From the IMG/VR virus record IMGVR_UViG_3300030119_000978, positions 1 through 33,027 of that record: a stretch of DNA of 33,027 bases; one strand, given 5' to 3'. The notes under the pieces were generated by a model, which saw nothing but the letters and a program-made list of their open reading frames with translations, was not told where the DNA came from and ran no database searches. Made by a program: the position numbers and the translations under genes. This document shows positions 23,894 to 33,027 of the stretch, piece after piece; position 1 is the stretch's first letter, and each line of letters begins with the position of its first letter. The stretch comes from a virus.

Positions 23894-24080
23894 CCGCGCC
23901 CGTCGCCGGCTGAAAGTCACCGTCGCACGCGCCGCTCCTTATCAAGTGCCCGCGCCGGATCGGCGGTTGCGGCAATCGAGCGCCGCAGGCGCGCAAAAGC
24001 GCGCCGGAGGCGGGCAAAAGCGGTACCGGCGCGGGCTCCGCTTAAACCCAGACGGGCGGGGGCGGGGAGATTAAATGCCA

Positions 24081-24108
24081 GCCCGGCTTTCCCAGGGGGA
24101 AAGCGGGC
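24081..24108 (-). terminator. Hairpin downstream of the small membrane-protein gene
   Basis: Arms GCCCGGCTTTCCC (24081-24093) and GGGAAAGCGGGC (24097-24108) pair over 12 bp with a single bulge. It lies 55 nt after the stop of the 24163-24453 gene. On the minus strand it is followed by TGGCATTTAATC, so the T-run is poor; it may still end or slow transcription before the control region. Confidence 0.4.
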
Positions 24109-24162
24109 ATGGGATCAGGGCACGGGGACGGGGCTATCGCCTCTCAGGAAGGGGCGGGGGCG

Positions 24163-24453
24163 TCAGTCCAGCGACTTGAGGCTTTCAAGCAAGTAGAAGG
24201 CAACGTGCCTGCGCGACTCGTAGAGAACCATGCCGGCATAAAACGACACCACGATACCGGCTAGGACGGCAAGTTTGCGCCCAAGCTCTCCTTCGCCGGT
24301 GCGCTCAGGAGCTCGGTTGCAAATCCATTTGAATACTAGGAGGCCGGGAAAAACCGTCAGGCCTATCGAACAAATGAAGATCGCCAAAACAATCACGCTG
24401 GCAACGAATTTCGCTGGAAAAGCAAATAGTAAGTCAAAGAGCCAGGCCGGCAT
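24163..24453 (-). CDS. Small membrane protein of unknown function
   Basis: The 96-aa protein has one long or two short membrane segments at about residues 13-44 (FVASVIVLAIFICSIGLTVFP), a basic loop with NRAPERTGEGELGRK, and another segment at 61-78 (LAVLAGIVVSFYAGMVLY). The ATG at 24453 has a strong GGGAGG 8 nt upstream, which fixes the start; longer in-frame versions are shadows. It stands alone between the control region and the divergent antirepressor operon and is less GC-rich than its neighbours, like a moron gene. The 14-nt element shared with the lipoprotein gene lies 45 nt upstream. An envelope-associated role such as superinfection exclusion is possible but not shown. Confidence 0.75.
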   Translation of the reverse strand: MPAWLFDLLFAFPAKFVASVIVLAIFICSIGLTVFPGLLVFKWICNRAPERTGEGELGRKLAVLAGIVVSFYAGMVLYESRRHVAFYLLESLKSLD

Positions 24454-24542
24454 ATTGACATCCTCCCGCAATGCGCGCAGTCTGCCACCGCTCCGCACGA
24501 ATGTGGAGTCCGGTTTGGTCGCCGGATCGCGAGCGCCCACAG
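24454..24542 (+). promoter_or_regulatory. Divergent promoter region (weak evidence)
   Basis: A consensus TTGACA lies at 24455-24460 on the plus strand, overlapping the start of the minus-strand membrane gene, but the hexamer 17 nt downstream (CAGTCT) is a poor -10. If used, it would drive transcription through the terminator at 24543-24565 into the C4 RNA and antirepressor genes. Confidence 0.25.
24498..24511 (-). promoter_or_regulatory. 14-nt shared element copy 2 (upstream of membrane-protein gene)
   Basis: Minus strand GGACTCCACATTCG, identical to 4791-4804, lies 45 nt before the start of the small membrane-protein gene. Confidence 0.45.
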
Positions 24543-24565
24543 CAGCGCTCTTTGCGCTGTTTTTT
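24543..24565 (+). terminator. Intrinsic terminator upstream of the C4 RNA
   Basis: A stem CAGCGC/GCGCTG with a 5-nt loop is followed at once by six T on the plus strand. This is a textbook rho-independent terminator. It lies 2 nt before the C4 RNA, so it either insulates the antirepressor operon from plus-strand read-through or acts as an attenuator in its leader. Confidence 0.8.
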
Positions 24566-24567
24566 AT

Positions 24568-24640
24568 GGGTGGCCCATCGGGAGGCGCTTGCGCCTGCCG
24601 TTCTCGCGACGGTCGACCAACCCGGTGAGGCCACCCACCA
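24568..24640 (+). ncRNA. C4-type antisense RNA controlling the antirepressor operon
   Basis: The segment folds into a three-way junction. The outer stem GGGTGGCC (24568-24575) pairs with GGCCACCC (24629-24636). Hairpin 1 is AGGCG (24583-24587) with CGCCT (24592-24596). Hairpin 2 is CCGT (24598-24601) with ACGG (24609-24612). The text CGGGAGGCG, CGCCTGCCG and CGGTCGACCAACCCGGT matches what I know of the C4 RNA family of phage P1/P7 and many prophages. C4 RNA silences translation of a short ORF to which the antirepressor gene is coupled, by pairing at two sites. Both are present here: loop 24601-24609 is complementary over 9 nt to 24659-24667, and CGACCAA (24614-24620) over 7 nt to 24643-24649. 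The downstream genes end with a BRO-type antirepressor, as expected. Confidence 0.82.
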
Positions 24641-24642
24641 GC

Positions 24643-24667
24643 TTGGTCGCTGGTTAACTCGCGAGAA
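24643..24667 (+). promoter_or_regulatory. C4 target sites before the antirepressor operon
   Basis: TTGGTCG (24643-24649) and TCGCGAGAA (24659-24667) are exact reverse complements of two single-stranded parts of the C4 RNA. The second contains the weak ribosome site (GAGAA) and ends 5 nt before the ATG at 24673, so pairing would block translation of the first gene and, through ATGA coupling, the antirepressor. Confidence 0.75.
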
Positions 24668-24672
24668 AACCC

Positions 24673-24891
24673 ATGCAAACACCCGATCCGATCCATGTCG
24701 CCGATCATCATGCCGGCGTCATCCACGATCTTGCCGCGCTCCTGCTGTCGCTGGCTGAGGCCTGCGAGGACGAGGAATGGCTGCGCCAGCGCGCCGGCGT
24801 CGTCGCCATGCTGCATCTGATGTCGGATGCCAGCCTCGCCGCCACGCGCGCGCTCGCGCCGCGCCCGGCCAATGTGAGGGCGATGCAATGA
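24673..24891 (+). CDS. Small icd-like protein, first gene of antirepressor operon
   Basis: The 72-aa protein is helical and acidic (GVIHDLAALLLSLAEACEDEEWLRQRAGVVAMLHLM). It is the direct target of the C4 RNA, taking the place of icd in phage P1, whose translation is needed for the coupled antirepressor gene. It resembles the next protein: the pattern LL-x8-D-x2-WL-x2-R recurs. That suggests a tandem duplication. It overlaps the next gene by 4 nt (ATGA). No enzymatic motif is seen. It may serve mainly as a translated leader or may itself act on the host. Confidence 0.75.
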   Translation: MQTPDPIHVADHHAGVIHDLAALLLSLAEACEDEEWLRQRAGVVAMLHLMSDASLAATRALAPRPANVRAMQ

Positions 24892-25100
24892 GCAGCTTCG
24901 AGACCGCCAACGACACCGCCGTCCTGCTCGACATGATCGCCACCTATGCGGACAATGCCGACGACAGGGCATGGCTGGAGGCCCGCTCCGTGCTGATCGA
25001 GATGATGGCCGGTGCACGCGCCCGCCTGCTGATCGCGGCGCAAGACATCGACAGCACGGACCTTGCCGCCCGTCACACCGCACCGGAGGGGATGCAATGA
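24888..25100 (+). CDS. Small helical protein, paralogue of the preceding gene
   Basis: The 70-aa protein (LLDMIATYADNADDRAWLEARSVLIEMMAGARARLLIAAQDID) aligns with the upstream protein around the D-x-WL-x2-R helix, and both end with MQ before an ATGA junction. It overlaps both neighbours by 4 nt and so links C4-controlled translation to the antirepressor. Function is unknown. Confidence 0.75.
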   Translation: MSSFETANDTAVLLDMIATYADNADDRAWLEARSVLIEMMAGARARLLIAAQDIDSTDLAARHTAPEGMQ

Positions 25101-25945
25101 GTGCCCTCGCCATCTTCGTCTTCGAGGATATGCCGCTGCGTATACTCGACCGCAACGGCGAGCCGTGGTTCGTTGCCAGAGATGTCTGCACGATCCTCGA
25201 CATCAAGAACGTCACTCAGGCGCTGGCACCTCTCGATCCCGACGAACGGTCTATGTTGAACATAGGGCGACAGGGCGAAACCAACCTCATTTCCGAGGGC
25301 GGTTTCTACACGCTGACCGTCAGGTCGAAAAAGGCCATGACACCGGGCACCGTGCAGCATCGATTTCGCAAGTTCGTGACATCCGAGGTCCTGCCGCAGA
25401 TCCGCCGCACCGGGGCCTATGCCCCGGCGGCCGCCATCGAGGCCGAGCCCGTTGCGGCCGTCGAGCGGCGGCAGGCACTGGAGATGGTGCGCGAGGCGCG
25501 CCAGCTCTACGGCCCGGCGCGCGCCCGCCGCCTGTGGGAGACCCTGCCGGCGCTGCCGCCCGTGCCGGCCGCTCCGAAGCCCGCCCATATCGAGGCGGCC
25601 GAGGATTGCCTGTCGCACCTGATGGACTGGCGCAGCAACGGGGGCATGACCGTGCGCGAGCTGATCAACGAGGCGATGGCCGACAACACGGCCGCGCTGC
25701 TGATCCTGCGGGATCTCGGCATCCGCGTCGTCGCGGATCTCGAGATGGGCGACGGCATCGTCATCGCCAACAGCTACAACGGGGTGAGGGACCTGTTCCG
25801 GCAGACCATATGGGCGAAGGGCCGGCACCGGGCGGCGCTGCGGGCGCTGGACGGCGCGGCACCCTACAAGGCCCTCAAATACGGCGACAGACACGCCTCG
25901 CTCGGCACCTTCCTGCCGCTGGAAACCGTTGCAGAGAGCTTCTGA
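25097..25945 (+). CDS. BRO-N family antirepressor
   Basis: The 282-aa protein has a BRO-N domain at residues 4-107: LRILDRNGEPWFVARDVCTILDIKNVTQAL, then NLISEGGFYTLTVRSKK and RFRKFVTSEVLPQIRRTGAY are its conserved blocks. After a Pro/Ala-rich linker, residues 165-282 form a second domain (SNGGMTVRELINEAMADNTAALLILRDLGIRVVADLE) of unknown family. Phage antirepressors with BRO-N bind and inactivate the prophage repressor and trigger the lytic cycle. The C4 RNA upstream and the ATGA-coupled small genes are the regulatory set-up known for ant genes. The repressor it would target is not in the window. Confidence 0.88.
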   Translation: MSALAIFVFEDMPLRILDRNGEPWFVARDVCTILDIKNVTQALAPLDPDERSMLNIGRQGETNLISEGGFYTLTVRSKKAMTPGTVQHRFRKFVTSEVLPQIRRTGAYAPAAAIEAEPVAAVERRQALEMVREARQLYGPARARRLWETLPALPPVPAAPKPAHIEAAEDCLSHLMDWRSNGGMTVRELINEAMADNTAALLILRDLGIRVVADLEMGDGIVIANSYNGVRDLFRQTIWAKGRHRAALRALDGAAPYKALKYGDRHASLGTFLPLETVAESF

Positions 25946-25947
25946 CA

Positions 25948-25977
25948 GAGCGCGGGCGGCTTACGTGCCGCCTGCTC
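25948..25977. terminator. Hairpin between convergent antirepressor and helicase genes
   Basis: GGCGGC (25955-25960) pairs with GCCGCC (25967-25972) around TTACGT, and flanking GAGC/GCTC extend the stem. It fills the 30 nt between two convergent stop codons, the place for a bidirectional terminator. No T-run is present on either side. Confidence 0.5.
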
Positions 25978-27826
25978 AGTCCTTCGCCACCGGCATCAGG
26001 CGGTCCCAGGCGCCGAGGTCCACCAACAGGCAGAATTTCGCGGTGCGCTGGATCTTGACCGTGTGGTACCGCTGATCGAGCCCGCGCAACACGATGTCTT
26101 CGGGCGCCTGTTTCAGCGCTGCCCACCATCCACCCTCATAAAAATCGGTGTCGGCGAAGATCTTGGTCAGGGCAGGGTGTTTCGCCGGCACGGCGAGATA
26201 GGGACCGATCGCCGGTTCACCGGCCTTGCGCAGCCCGAGGCCGGCCAGCGCCAGGCGCTCACGCGCATAGCTGAGATCCAGGCTCGTTCCGTTCTCGAAC
26301 TCCTGCAGCACGCTTCCCACCGTCAGCCTGTCGCCGCCCCGGTGCGCGTCGATCGGCGCGGCGAGCAGGTGCTCCAGGCAGTCCTGCCATTTTTCGATCT
26401 GTTCCGCCCTCTCGGCTGAGGTGGCGGCGCGGATGATTTCCGCCAGCGCTTCCTGGTTGGAGACCTCAAGGCCCAGATCCTCCAGGACCTCGGGGCCCAC
26501 CAGCATCTCGGCCGCCGCGAGCAGCGTGCCGTAGGTGTCGATGGCGCGGGCATCGAATCCCGCCAGATGCAGCGTCTTGCGCCAGTCGGGCAGGATCCGC
26601 GTCCGGAACTCCTGCCAGCCGTCCATGATCTGGCGAAGTAACATCCGGCCATCGGTGTCGCGCACCACCGGCTCGCGGCCGTGCCCCTTGTCCAGTTTCT
26701 TGAGGTTCAGCACCGCCATGCGCGTTTTGTCCTGCTGGCCCATGGGCGGGGGCAGGATGGCGGAGAACATGAAGGAGCTGCGGGCCTGAAACGTGGTGCC
26801 GTCGTGGTTCTGTCCGCCGCGCGCCATCTTGCCACCGCTCGCGGCCAGGCGCGCAAGCTCGATGACGGCCGTCGCGCGGCTGCTTCCGCGCTTGGCCTCC
26901 AGCTCGTCCACCGTCACCGGCAAACTGTCCTGCTTGACGTGCTGGTAGATGCCGGCGGCCGTGGTGTCGACCAGGGCAATCAAACTGTCCCCCAGGATCG
27001 CCTCGACAATCCGGTGCAGCGTCGATTTGCCGACGCCGGCGCCGCCGGTCGTGAACACGATCGGCCGCCAGTCGAGCGCGCCGCCCATGAGCGCGCTTAC
27101 CATCCAGCCCAGGAACAGCACGGGGTCGAGGTACGGCCGCTCCCATTGCCAACTGCGCAGGTCCTCCAGGATGGAGAGCGCAGGGCTTTCCTCGCGCTCG
27201 ATCGGGGTTTCCCAGGGCCGGGTGATGTCGGGTGCGCGGGTGTAGAGATAGCCGCCGTGTTCGGCCGGCCGCGCCGCCTGCAACTCGCCGCGTTCGTCGA
27301 CCGACCACAGCCACTCGCCCGAGTTCCAGATGAACGCGCCCTGATCCGCCATCCAGCCGCCGCGCCCGCGCACGCGCCGGTTGGGATCGAACAGCCCGCG
27401 TCGCTTGCCCTCCGACACCAGGCAGATCATGGCCTTGTCGCGTTCGACGCGGTCGACACGATAGATCGGCTCGCCGTCCTCGTTGGTTCCCACTTTCTTG
27501 AATGCCGGCCAGGCCCAATACGCATAGTTGATCTGGGGCGCGAACAGGCTGGCGATAACGTGCATGTCCCACCGCTCGACGGCGTGGAGCTGCCCGGTGG
27601 CGGACAGGCAATAGGTCACCGTGCCGTTGTGGCCGAGCACCTGGACGGGACAGCCGGGCGGAAGGCAGTCCCAGGGCGCGCCGCCCCACTTGCCGGGGTT
27701 GATGCCCTCGCGCGGCAGGTTCGGGTCCGGATCCATCACGTCGGCGCGCTCATCGAGCGCGCGCATTGCCTCGATGAAATGCGCCCTGGTCGCCTGCTTG
27801 CCGACCTGTGTCTTGCGCCGTGCCAT
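25976..27826 (-). CDS. Replicative helicase-like ATPase (SF3/D5-type)
   Basis: The 616-aa protein has Walker A GGAGVGKST at residues 261-269 and Walker B-like VTVDELE at 304-310. A region with SSFMFSAILPPPMGQQDKTRMAVLNL follows, which fits a sensor-type segment of SF3 and D5-like phage helicases. The N-terminal 200 residues (GKWGGAPWDCLPPGCPVQVLGHNG and QINYAYWAWPAFKK) are a domain often fused to such ATPases in phage replication proteins. It likely loads at the origin with the Toprim primase encoded upstream. An intrinsic terminator lies between it and the upstream gene, so it may be transcribed separately or only with antitermination. GGCGGGA just before the ATG serves as ribosome site. Confidence 0.82.
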   Translation of the reverse strand: MARRKTQVGKQATRAHFIEAMRALDERADVMDPDPNLPREGINPGKWGGAPWDCLPPGCPVQVLGHNGTVTYCLSATGQLHAVERWDMHVIASLFAPQINYAYWAWPAFKKVGTNEDGEPIYRVDRVERDKAMICLVSEGKRRGLFDPNRRVRGRGGWMADQGAFIWNSGEWLWSVDERGELQAARPAEHGGYLYTRAPDITRPWETPIEREESPALSILEDLRSWQWERPYLDPVLFLGWMVSALMGGALDWRPIVFTTGGAGVGKSTLHRIVEAILGDSLIALVDTTAAGIYQHVKQDSLPVTVDELEAKRGSSRATAVIELARLAASGGKMARGGQNHDGTTFQARSSFMFSAILPPPMGQQDKTRMAVLNLKKLDKGHGREPVVRDTDGRMLLRQIMDGWQEFRTRILPDWRKTLHLAGFDARAIDTYGTLLAAAEMLVGPEVLEDLGLEVSNQEALAEIIRAATSAERAEQIEKWQDCLEHLLAAPIDAHRGGDRLTVGSVLQEFENGTSLDLSYARERLALAGLGLRKAGEPAIGPYLAVPAKHPALTKIFADTDFYEGGWWAALKQAPEDIVLRGLDQRYHTVKIQRTAKFCLLVDLGAWDRLMPVAKD

Positions 27827-31037: not shown

Positions 31038-31333
31038 GCGTCACCGCCTTCCTTCAGCTCGCATCCGAGCGCCGACAGAAGACGGACGACGGCCTGCCCT
31101 TCGGCCGGATCGAAGACTTCGAGCTCCAGCGTCAGTCCGTCAAAATCGTCGTCACGGTCAAAGACGTCTCCGGACGTCCTGCTACAGCGAACGCGCCGCG
31201 AACGACCATCCGCGAGTGGCGCGGCCAGCAGGGAAAGCGGCCGGTCGTTCCAGCTCGACACGAGGTTTTCCTTGCGGTCGAAGTGCACAGGCCCGCAGGC
31301 ACCGCAGAACGGGCAGGGGAGAAGGTCGGTCAT
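31034..31333 (-). CDS. CPxCG mini-protein (Lar-like zinc ribbon start)
   Basis: The 99-aa protein starts MTDLLPCPFCGACGP, the typical start of Lar-type restriction-alleviation and related phage zinc-ribbon proteins, but a second CxxC pair is not seen (only VRCSRT follows). The rest (LTLELEVFDPAEGQAVVRLLSALGCELKE) is an alpha/beta segment unlike Lar. Zinc binding is therefore uncertain. Its first eight residues and the DNA around them are duplicated at the start of the preceding gene. The start overlaps the upstream stop (ATGA). It lies beside a methyltransferase gene, which fits an anti-restriction theme without proving it. Confidence 0.65.
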   Translation of the reverse strand: MTDLLPCPFCGACGPVHFDRKENLVSSWNDRPLSLLAAPLADGRSRRVRCSRTSGDVFDRDDDFDGLTLELEVFDPAEGQAVVRLLSALGCELKEGGDA

Positions 31334-31375
31334 GTCTGTGGCCTCCAGTGCATTTGCCGGAGGCTTTCGCGCTGA
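31308..31375. repeat. 68-bp near-identical repeat, copy 1
   Basis: Identical to 31823-31890 except for one base (67/68). It spans the last codons of the XRE/winged-helix gene, the ATGA junction, and the first codons of the CPxCG gene. Confidence 0.9.
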
Positions 31376-31848
31376 GCCTCGTCCAGGCACCAGCCTTCGC
31401 CCCGGCGGGTATGGATCTCGATGCCCAACCGCTTGAGTTTCTTGCGCAGATTGCAAACGATGACCTTGACGATACCGCCGCCGCGCCTGCCGCTATCGCG
31501 GTAGAGCCCCGTCAGCATGGCGACCCTCGTCGCAGCGCCACGGCAGAGAAGAACGGTGAACACGCGCGCCTCCTGCGGCGTGAGACCGCACTCCCGCAAC
31601 TTCGGGGCCAGGCCCACCCACTCAAACGGATCGACCTCATACAGCCGGCACAACCGCAACAGGGACAGGGCCGGCACGTCCTTTCCTCGCTCGGCATCGA
31701 TCAGATCGCCGGGAGCCACGCCGGAAAGAGATGTGGCCTCGGCGATCGAGAGCCCGGCATCGTCGCGAGCCATGCAGAAGACGACGCCGACCATCGCCAG
31801 CGCCATCTTGTCGGCATCGCCAAACGGGCAGGGGAGAAGGTCGGTCAT
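31330..31848 (-). CDS. Chimeric regulator: XRE-like HTH plus OmpR/CtrA-type winged helix
   Basis: The 172-aa protein has three parts. Residues 1-9 (MTDLLPCPF) copy the start of the CPxCG protein encoded next. Residues 14-78 look like an XRE-type helix-turn-helix (LSIAEATSLSGVAPGDLIDAERGKDVPALSLLRLCRLYEVD). Residues 88-155 are an OmpR-type winged helix (LTPQEARVFTVLLCRG, VKVIVCNLRKKLKRLGIEIHTRRGEGWCL) paralogous to the gene upstream. It has no receiver domain and is likely a phage transcription regulator binding direct repeats. Both ends overlap neighbours by 4 nt (ATGA). The chimeric N-terminus and the 68-bp repeats at both gene ends point to recombination. Confidence 0.75.
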   Translation of the reverse strand: MTDLLPCPFGDADKMALAMVGVVFCMARDDAGLSIAEATSLSGVAPGDLIDAERGKDVPALSLLRLCRLYEVDPFEWVGLAPKLRECGLTPQEARVFTVLLCRGAATRVAMLTGLYRDSGRRGGGIVKVIVCNLRKKLKRLGIEIHTRRGEGWCLDEAQRESLRQMHWRPQT

Positions 31849-31890
31849 GTCTGTGGCCTCCAGAGCATTTGCCGGAGGCTTTCGCGCTGA
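31823..31890. repeat. 68-bp near-identical repeat, copy 2
   Basis: Partner of 31308-31375, 515 nt apart. It spans the last codons of the 124-aa winged-helix gene and the first codons of the chimeric regulator. Confidence 0.9.
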
Positions 31891-32219
31891 TCTTCGTCCA
31901 GATACCAGCCTTCGCCCCAGCGAGTGTGGATCTCGATGCCGAAAGGCTTGAGCTTTTTCCGTATCTTGCAGACGAAGACATCGGCGATCTTCGCTTCCGC
32001 CTGATCCCTGCCCAGGTCGTCGTAGAGCGCCGCGAGGATCGCGGTCCGTGTCGCCAGGGAGCGGGTGACCAGAACGCCGAACACGCGGGCCTCCTGGACC
32101 GTCAGGCGCCATTCAATCGGCAACGACACGTCACGAAACAGGGCGTGCTCCAGCTCGTCTATCCGTGCGCGAAGCCGCTCGTTCTCGTCCCGCAGCATCG
32201 TCAGCTCGTCAGCTTCCAC
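31845..32219 (-). CDS. OmpR/CtrA-type winged-helix regulator without receiver
   Basis: The 124-aa protein has a short coiled coil (residues 5-27, LTMLRDENERLRARIDELE) and then a winged-helix domain (38-108). The recognition-helix region EAKIADVFVCKIRKKL (75-90) closely resembles that of the alphaproteobacterial cell-cycle regulator CtrA, and GEGWYL is the wing motif of the OmpR family. There is no receiver domain, so it is not phosphorylation-controlled like CtrA. OmpR-family domains bind tandem half-sites at 10-11 bp spacing, which matches the CTAACC array at 23679-23893. GTG at 32219 is chosen because GAGGA lies 8 nt upstream; it overlaps the ParB-like gene by 11 nt. Confidence 0.8.
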   Translation of the reverse strand: MEADELTMLRDENERLRARIDELEHALFRDVSLPIEWRLTVQEARVFGVLVTRSLATRTAILAALYDDLGRDQAEAKIADVFVCKIRKKLKPFGIEIHTRWGEGWYLDEDQRESLRQMLWRPQT

Positions 32220-33027
32220 GGCGGCTCTTCCTCGTGTGGCGGTAGAGAACGACCGTGAGCGCTTTCCACTTCGGCATCCTGTGTGCGGTCCGGAGCTGAG
32301 CGACTTCGGACCAGCGCTCCGGACCAAGCGACCGGATGGTGTTGACCAGGGCTCCGCTTTCCACGGTGCCGGCGTACTCGGCATCGTGGAGGATTGCGTC
32401 GACCGCCTTGATCATCTCGGCGGACACGGGCGCAAGCTGCGCCTGCACGCAAACGTCGAGCACCGGGCGGGCGCCGACGGGAAACCGCCTCTTGACGAGA
32501 CTGCGAAGTGCCGCGATCGCAACGGTTTCGCCGACCGCGAACTTGCCCATTGCCGGCGGATTTCTGAGGATGCGCACGCCCGCGCGCTCGCAGACAGCGG
32601 CTACGTCCCGCGCCTCTTCCTCACCGGCGGCCAGCAGCGAATGGTGAAGCTGCATCGGCGTGACCGTGACCCGGTCGCGGTTGTGACGAACGAAAGCGCC
32701 CGCCCTGTCCTCCGAGTTCGGAGCCGGCACGACGACGACCGGGATCGTGTCGATGCGCGGATGGGATGCCGCAGCGATGGCGGTGTGCTGACCGTCGAGA
32801 ACGTGAAGCGCGCCGTCGACATCGACAGTCACGGGAGGCTTGAACGCGCTCCAGCTCCACTCGCGCACGATCCGGCGGATCAGCGTGACCGACCGTTCCG
32901 AGAGGTCACGCTGATAGGCATCGTCCACGTGGAGATCCAGCGGAGACACGTCGCGAAACTCCGGGCGGATTTCACCTGGCTCGCCCGGTTCGACATCCGG
33001 CATGTGAAGTTGCGTGATTGACCGCAT
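32209..33027 (-). CDS. ParB-like nuclease/NTPase-domain protein
   Basis: 272 aa are visible; an ATG occupies the last three bases of the window, so a longer N-terminus cannot be excluded. Residues 26-105 form a ParB/Srx N-terminal domain: YQRDLSERSVTLIRRIVREW and then HVLDGQHTAIAAA (76-88), where DGQH is the ParB box (last Arg replaced by Thr). The C-terminal part is helical and lacks an obvious helix-turn-helix. Such proteins in phages act in regulation, DNA modification or partition-like DNA binding. It begins the visible early operon and overlaps the next gene by 11 nt. A second ParB-like domain occurs in the internal virion protein 7364-9736. Confidence 0.78.
   Translation of the reverse strand: MRSITQLHMPDVEPGEPGEIRPEFRDVSPLDLHVDDAYQRDLSERSVTLIRRIVREWSWSAFKPPVTVDVDGALHVLDGQHTAIAAASHPRIDTIPVVVVPAPNSEDRAGAFVRHNRDRVTVTPMQLHHSLLAAGEEEARDVAAVCERAGVRILRNPPAMGKFAVGETVAIAALRSLVKRRFPVGARPVLDVCVQAQLAPVSAEMIKAVDAILHDAEYAGTVESGALVNTIRSLGPERWSEVAQLRTAHRMPKWKALTVVLYRHTRKSRRGS

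Follow-up and report, generated by a model that had tools for sequence, protein, structure and literature searches.

A C4-type antisense RNA module ahead of a BRO-N antirepressor operon in an alphaproteobacterial prophage

In the immI region (c4-icd-ant) of phages P1 and P7, the antisense RNA C4 precedes a small leader gene, icd, and the antirepressor gene ant. In the P1 record, c4 is flanked by annotated target sites, a1 and b1 before it and a2 and b2 after it. In P1, the end of icd (48691) overlaps the start of ant1 (48688). Processing of P1 C4 by RNase P is established (reported in PMC5320573). A second locus of this kind is isrK-orf45-anrP of the Salmonella prophage Gifsy-1, in which short IsrK supplied in trans raises anrP translation 114- to 171-fold and acts mainly at that level (139-fold, compared with 8-fold for transcription; PMC4825925). 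The same paper describes the compensatory mutants G28A/C162U and G31A/C159U in the IsrK locus, cites P4 seqA as structurally homologous to IsrK and mentions STnc1160, a processed RNA that lies downstream of IsrK. Satellite phage P4 also encodes a processed antisense RNA, CI, with targets on both sides (seqA and seqC); unlike the locus described below, it acts by transcription termination, and P4 has no antirepressor operon. The Rfam profiles C4 and isrK detect relatives of P4 CI and seqA (PMC10111431).

Here we analyzed a 33,027-nt stretch of viral DNA (IMG/VR record IMGVR_UViG_3300030119_000978), which we call the window. It belongs to a 39.1-kb element bounded by 50-bp direct repeats at window coordinates -242 and 38864; the right-hand repeat falls within a tRNA-Lys gene, adjacent to an integrase gene. 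The element encodes a head-tail connector protein, which points to a podovirus-like phage, and the named relatives of its terminase are records from Stappia taiwanensis (87%), Roseibium, Rhodobacteraceae and Rhodobacterales. The original prediction of an alphaproteobacterial podovirus is thus borne out, in the form of a prophage. A nucleotide search found only short chance matches among phages and none among plasmids. Two adjoining reading frames at 31330-32384 (minus strand) have weak Trans_reg_C (OmpR-type) matches and are possible regulators or repressor candidates.

A C4-like three-way-junction RNA had been proposed for this locus, at 24568-24640, from the letters of the DNA. The Rfam C4 covariance model (RF01695) matches 24562-24642 on the plus strand, the strand of all features below unless stated otherwise, with 56.4 bits against a cut-off of 45 (E 1.8e-8 over the whole window). 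The match is full length (model positions 1-87 of 87) and is the sole family match in the window at curated Rfam cut-offs. The predicted fold is a three-way junction of -44.1 kcal/mol (z -4.0), equalled by none of 200 shuffles, and both stems and loops covary among homologous loci, as detailed below. Two segments of the RNA are complementary to target sites: the loop b' (24601-24609, TTCTCGCGA), complementary to b1 and b2, and a' (24614-24620, CGACCAA), complementary to a1 and a2. Alignment to the 5' end of P1 c4 (48343) predicts the mature 5' end at G24568, and ACCA follows the closing stem of C4. This position and the ACCA tail agree with P1 C4 and suggest that the window C4 would likewise be processed by RNase P.

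The downstream targets lie between C4 and the first gene of the operon, orfA. The a2 site (24643-24649, TTGGTCG) is an exact 7-nt complement of a' and begins at the first base after the C4 match, an offset identical to that of the annotated a2 of P1. The b2 site (24659-24667, TCGCGAGAA) is, in the window, a 9-nt complement of b'; it covers the orfA ribosome site, as had been claimed for one of the targets, and leaves 5 nt to the ATG at 24673. The claim that both downstream complements are exact holds in the window, but the 9-nt match is interrupted in the assembly of the window's own genome. The two sequences differ at four of 33,027 bases (10991, 15277, 24662 and 31534); one of these, 24662, falls within b2, where the window has C and the assembly G. 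The exactness of the b2 match rests on this one disputed base. With G, b' pairs with b2 over 5+3 nt with one mismatch, the duplex weakens from -14.8 to -11.2 kcal/mol, the orfA ribosome site becomes GGGAG, and the joint downstream match within the 48-nt flank is reached by 79 rather than 2 of 3000 Markov shuffles. The upstream site b1 agrees with C. The other three differences fall in coding sequence, two of them missense and one silent. Cofolding of C4 with its target, which had been suggested as a check on the pairing, gave a gain of only -4 to -5 kcal/mol, equalled by 2-6 of 100 shuffles, by a method beyond whose reach loop-loop pairing lies.

The original prediction missed the upstream half of the module, where a second target pair and an intrinsic terminator lie. 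A candidate promoter, read from the sequence, comprises a -35 element TTGACA (24455-24460), a 17-nt spacer and a weak -10 element CAGTCT (24478-24483). Weak by consensus, it was not reported by a consensus promoter scan; at the equivalent position, one relative (locus L004) has TTGACA-N17-TATCGT. An IsrK-like leader follows at 24490-24564, consisting of a 5' hairpin, a hairpin bearing a1, the b1 site and the terminator. With the Rfam isrK model (RF01394), this leader scores 37.2 bits (E 9.6e-7 in 321 bases searched), short of the curated cut-off of 50, and the P1 leader itself reaches 35.1 bits. In a custom model of the upstream element, built without the window and with five pairs kept, the leader was the best match in the window, a weak one (15.9 bits, E 0.034), and the c4-a1b1 model (RF03163) had no match up to E 5 within 24400-24720. 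The a1 site (24515-24521, TTGGTCG) is an exact 7-nt complement of a' in the loop of a CCGG/CCGG hairpin, and its pairing with a' extends into the 3' strand of C4's P1 stem (-18.9 kcal/mol). The b1 site (24527-24533, TCGCGAG) is an exact 7-nt complement of b'. The terminator (24541-24566), an 8-pair stem followed by a T-run, directly abuts C4. A terminator scan of the region found two, compared with 0.9 expected from shuffles, and the other C4 loci have a GC hairpin and T-run at the equivalent place.

Downstream, the operon comprises orfA (24673-24891, 72 aa), orfB (24888-25100, 70 aa) and the antirepressor gene ant (25097-25945, 282 aa). The described ATGA coupling is present at both junctions, which share GATGCAATGAG, and the third gene indeed carries Bro-N (PF02498, 60.1 bits with a cut-off of 25.6; phrog_130 anti-repressor, 8e-37). 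Neither orfA nor orfB matches a known family. Protein searches found no confirmed relatives of Ant in the genome and viral collections or of orfA in the viral collection; for orfB, 120 other related genomes yielded a single faint relative (29% identity, E 0.002). The two small ORFs had been taken for paralogues unrelated to icd. Comparison with icd was no better than shuffles for either ORF, in line with the second part of that claim, but paralogy is weakly supported: pairwise BLASTP of orfA and orfB gave no match, and a Smith-Waterman alignment gave a 28-residue stretch that 3 of 500 shuffles also attained, one comparison in a scan of 36 pairs. Ant and a neighbouring primase-like protein (25976-27826) are alike in their C-terminal parts (pairwise BLASTP 3e-5); both match phrog_21086, which suggests domain sharing.

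The layout thus reproduces that of P1, as predicted. The window and P1/P7 share the C4 fold, the order a1-b1-C4-a2-b2 and a small leader gene that overlaps ant by 4 nt. Like P1, where sim occupies the position, the window has a divergent gene upstream (24163-24453, minus strand), which encodes a small membrane-like protein without a family match. In contrast to P1/P7, the window locus belongs to an alphaproteobacterial podovirus-like prophage in tRNA-Lys, has a BRO-N antirepressor, carries two small leader ORFs in place of icd and has a terminator that directly abuts C4. The podoviruses phiV10 and HEMP4 also combine an isrK-like leader, C4 and a BRO-N antirepressor; unlike in the window, their BRO-N gene directly follows C4 without the two small ORFs, and their hosts are gammaproteobacterial. 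Rhizobium phage RR1-A is closer in its alphaproteobacterial host and has C4 (51.8 bits), both target pairs and a leader ORF that overlaps the antirepressor by ATGA, although it has one leader ORF rather than two. Its C4 (locus L035, 48605-48691) is enclosed by the annotated CDS RHXG_00064, part of which is probably a misannotation.

To compare the module across genomes, we assembled 24 C4 loci, including the window, P1, Gifsy-1, phiV10, HEMP4 and RR1-A. C4 scored above the cut-off in seven of 61 related genomes and in five of 385 genomes of the class, both counts including the window's own; two related genomes have three copies each. Double changes occur at 18 of the 21 consensus C4 stem pairs over the 24 loci, with P3 not resolved in the alignment. 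A search for ordered a/b matches recovered the annotated a1, b1, a2 and b2 of P1 to the base. Each C4 matched its own targets over a mean of 14.5 nt upstream and 14.5 nt downstream, compared with 8.9 and 7.6 nt, respectively, with swapped partners. None of 20,000 permutations reached the observed sums for the 24 loci, a figure that overstates independence because some loci are close relatives, even though the loops still vary widely. The a1/b1 pair is kept in nearly all 24 loci, and b2 lies just ahead of a start codon in most. The order is kept ahead of antirepressor genes in P1, Gifsy-1, phiV10, HEMP4 and RR1-A. The downstream antirepressors themselves are of several kinds: BRO-N (by Pfam in the window, annotated in phiV10 and read from sequence in L002, L003, L005 and L034), AntA (Pfam, L024), P22_AR_N (Pfam, L004) and P1 Ant. 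The window, L002, L003, L005, RR1-A and P1 have, ahead of the antirepressor gene, one or two small leader ORFs with a 4-nt overlap into it. Two loci of one related genome, L006 and L009, have C4 and a matching a1/b1 and lack a downstream a2/b2 pair; these orphan C4 RNAs may act in trans or be decaying.

Syntenic relatives differ from the window at the locus itself. In L040 (same as L089), L041, L051, L091 and L092, the flanks of 24063-25953 align with the window and the interior does not, and C4 is absent from these syntenic relatives. This indicates that the switch, comprising the leader, C4, the operon and the divergent gene, is an exchangeable cassette.

The comparison set also bears on Gifsy-1 (L038). 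There, IsrK (34240-34316) is followed by a C4 match of 69 bits at 34131-34214, and a c4-a1b1 match overlaps IsrK. In numbering from the first base of IsrK, C4 starts at nt 103, and the published orf45 AUG (nt 107) is the conserved AUGG of C4, opening a frame of 45 codons. By sequence, then, 'orf45' is the C4 RNA read as an ORF, and the IsrK-orf45 locus and the window C4 locus are the same module. Each published compensatory mutant pair falls precisely on one base pair between a1 (UUGGCGU) and a' (ACGCCAA); the mutant data thereby amount to a test of the a1:a' helix and lend it genetic support in the homologous Gifsy-1 module. The text of PMC4825925, searched for C4 and P1, contains neither in its description of IsrK-orf45. 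Because PMC10111431 reports detection by shared profiles, the kinship as such is already in print; that IsrK would serve as an anti-C4 decoy is our own reading. The two loci share leader hairpins, an a1 loop, a terminator, C4 and then an antirepressor, whereas the window leader is below the isrK cut-off, its C4 frame has 20 codons and separate leader ORFs precede ant. An orf45-like protein in the window was considered and set aside: the frame through C4 stops after 20 codons, and its length is not conserved among loci.

We consider it probable that the window carries a complete C4-type antisense module that holds the antirepressor silent in the lysogen. In such a module, one promoter would give rise to a short leader that mostly ends at the intrinsic terminator. 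Read-through transcripts would contain C4, which RNase P would trim from the precursor, yielding a stable small RNA. C4 would then bind a2 by its a' segment and b2 by its b' loop, covering the orfA ribosome site. Given the ATGA overlaps that link orfA, orfB and ant, a block on orfA would lower synthesis of the BRO-N antirepressor through coupling and polarity, although coupling may be partial because ant has a strong ribosome site of its own, GGAGGGG. Once made, Ant would inactivate a repressor, and C4 would provide the second, RNA-based layer of immunity that the original prediction suggested. The upstream a1/b1 in the terminated leader would compete for C4, and how active C4 is would consequently depend on how many transcripts read through relative to those that terminate. 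It is quite possible, if short of probable, that the terminated leader goes further and acts as an independent anti-C4 RNA. The locus would then be a two-RNA toggle: a short IsrK-like RNA, transcribed from the promoter that also serves C4, would titrate C4 and so free the antirepressor, at a threshold set by terminator read-through.

The same upstream elements could be read another way. As in P4, C4 might pair mainly with nascent a1/b1 and promote termination at 24541-24566, which would make control transcriptional and the leader a target rather than a decoy. The terminator that abuts C4 and the retention of a1/b1 in nearly all loci favor such attenuation, as does the fact that the Rfam profiles C4 and isrK also pick up P4 CI, which works by termination, and seqA (PMC10111431). 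The position of b2 just ahead of a start codon in most loci speaks against it, and so does the predominantly translational action of short IsrK in Gifsy-1; on balance we regard attenuation as the main mode of control as somewhat unlikely. It is improbable that the module has decayed, with a C4 that still folds and a b2 mismatch that has freed orfA, leaving the antirepressor constitutive or the prophage defective. The assembly does have G at 24662, and L006 and L009, which keep C4 and a1/b1 without the downstream pair, indicate that decay occurs. In the window, though, that base is C, the sites a1, b1 and a2, the terminator, the three ORFs and the C4 stems are intact, and the prophage retains its att repeats and integrase gene. 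That the locus is a functionless GC-rich hairpin with short complementary words nearby, as the 79 shuffles that reached the assembly version of the downstream match might suggest, is hardly credible: it is contradicted by the C4 model match above the curated cut-off and by covariation, and ordered target pairs lie on both sides, with an antirepressor downstream.

Returning to the antisense module, the window locus is a real, well-supported further example of the known C4 switch, with a likely two-RNA design. In the part of PMC5320573 that summarises the 2010 C4 survey, other proteobacterial orders are named and no alphaproteobacterial one. In this locus the C4 switch is documented in complete form for prophages of Alphaproteobacteria, a host group in which it has seemingly been little described. 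Across the compared loci, the C4 loops evolve together with the four target sites, as expected if loops and targets set immunity specificity. The link to Gifsy-1 makes the question of decoy or attenuator directly testable. If true, the two-RNA toggle would bring P1 C4 and Salmonella IsrK together as a single switch used across proteobacterial phages.
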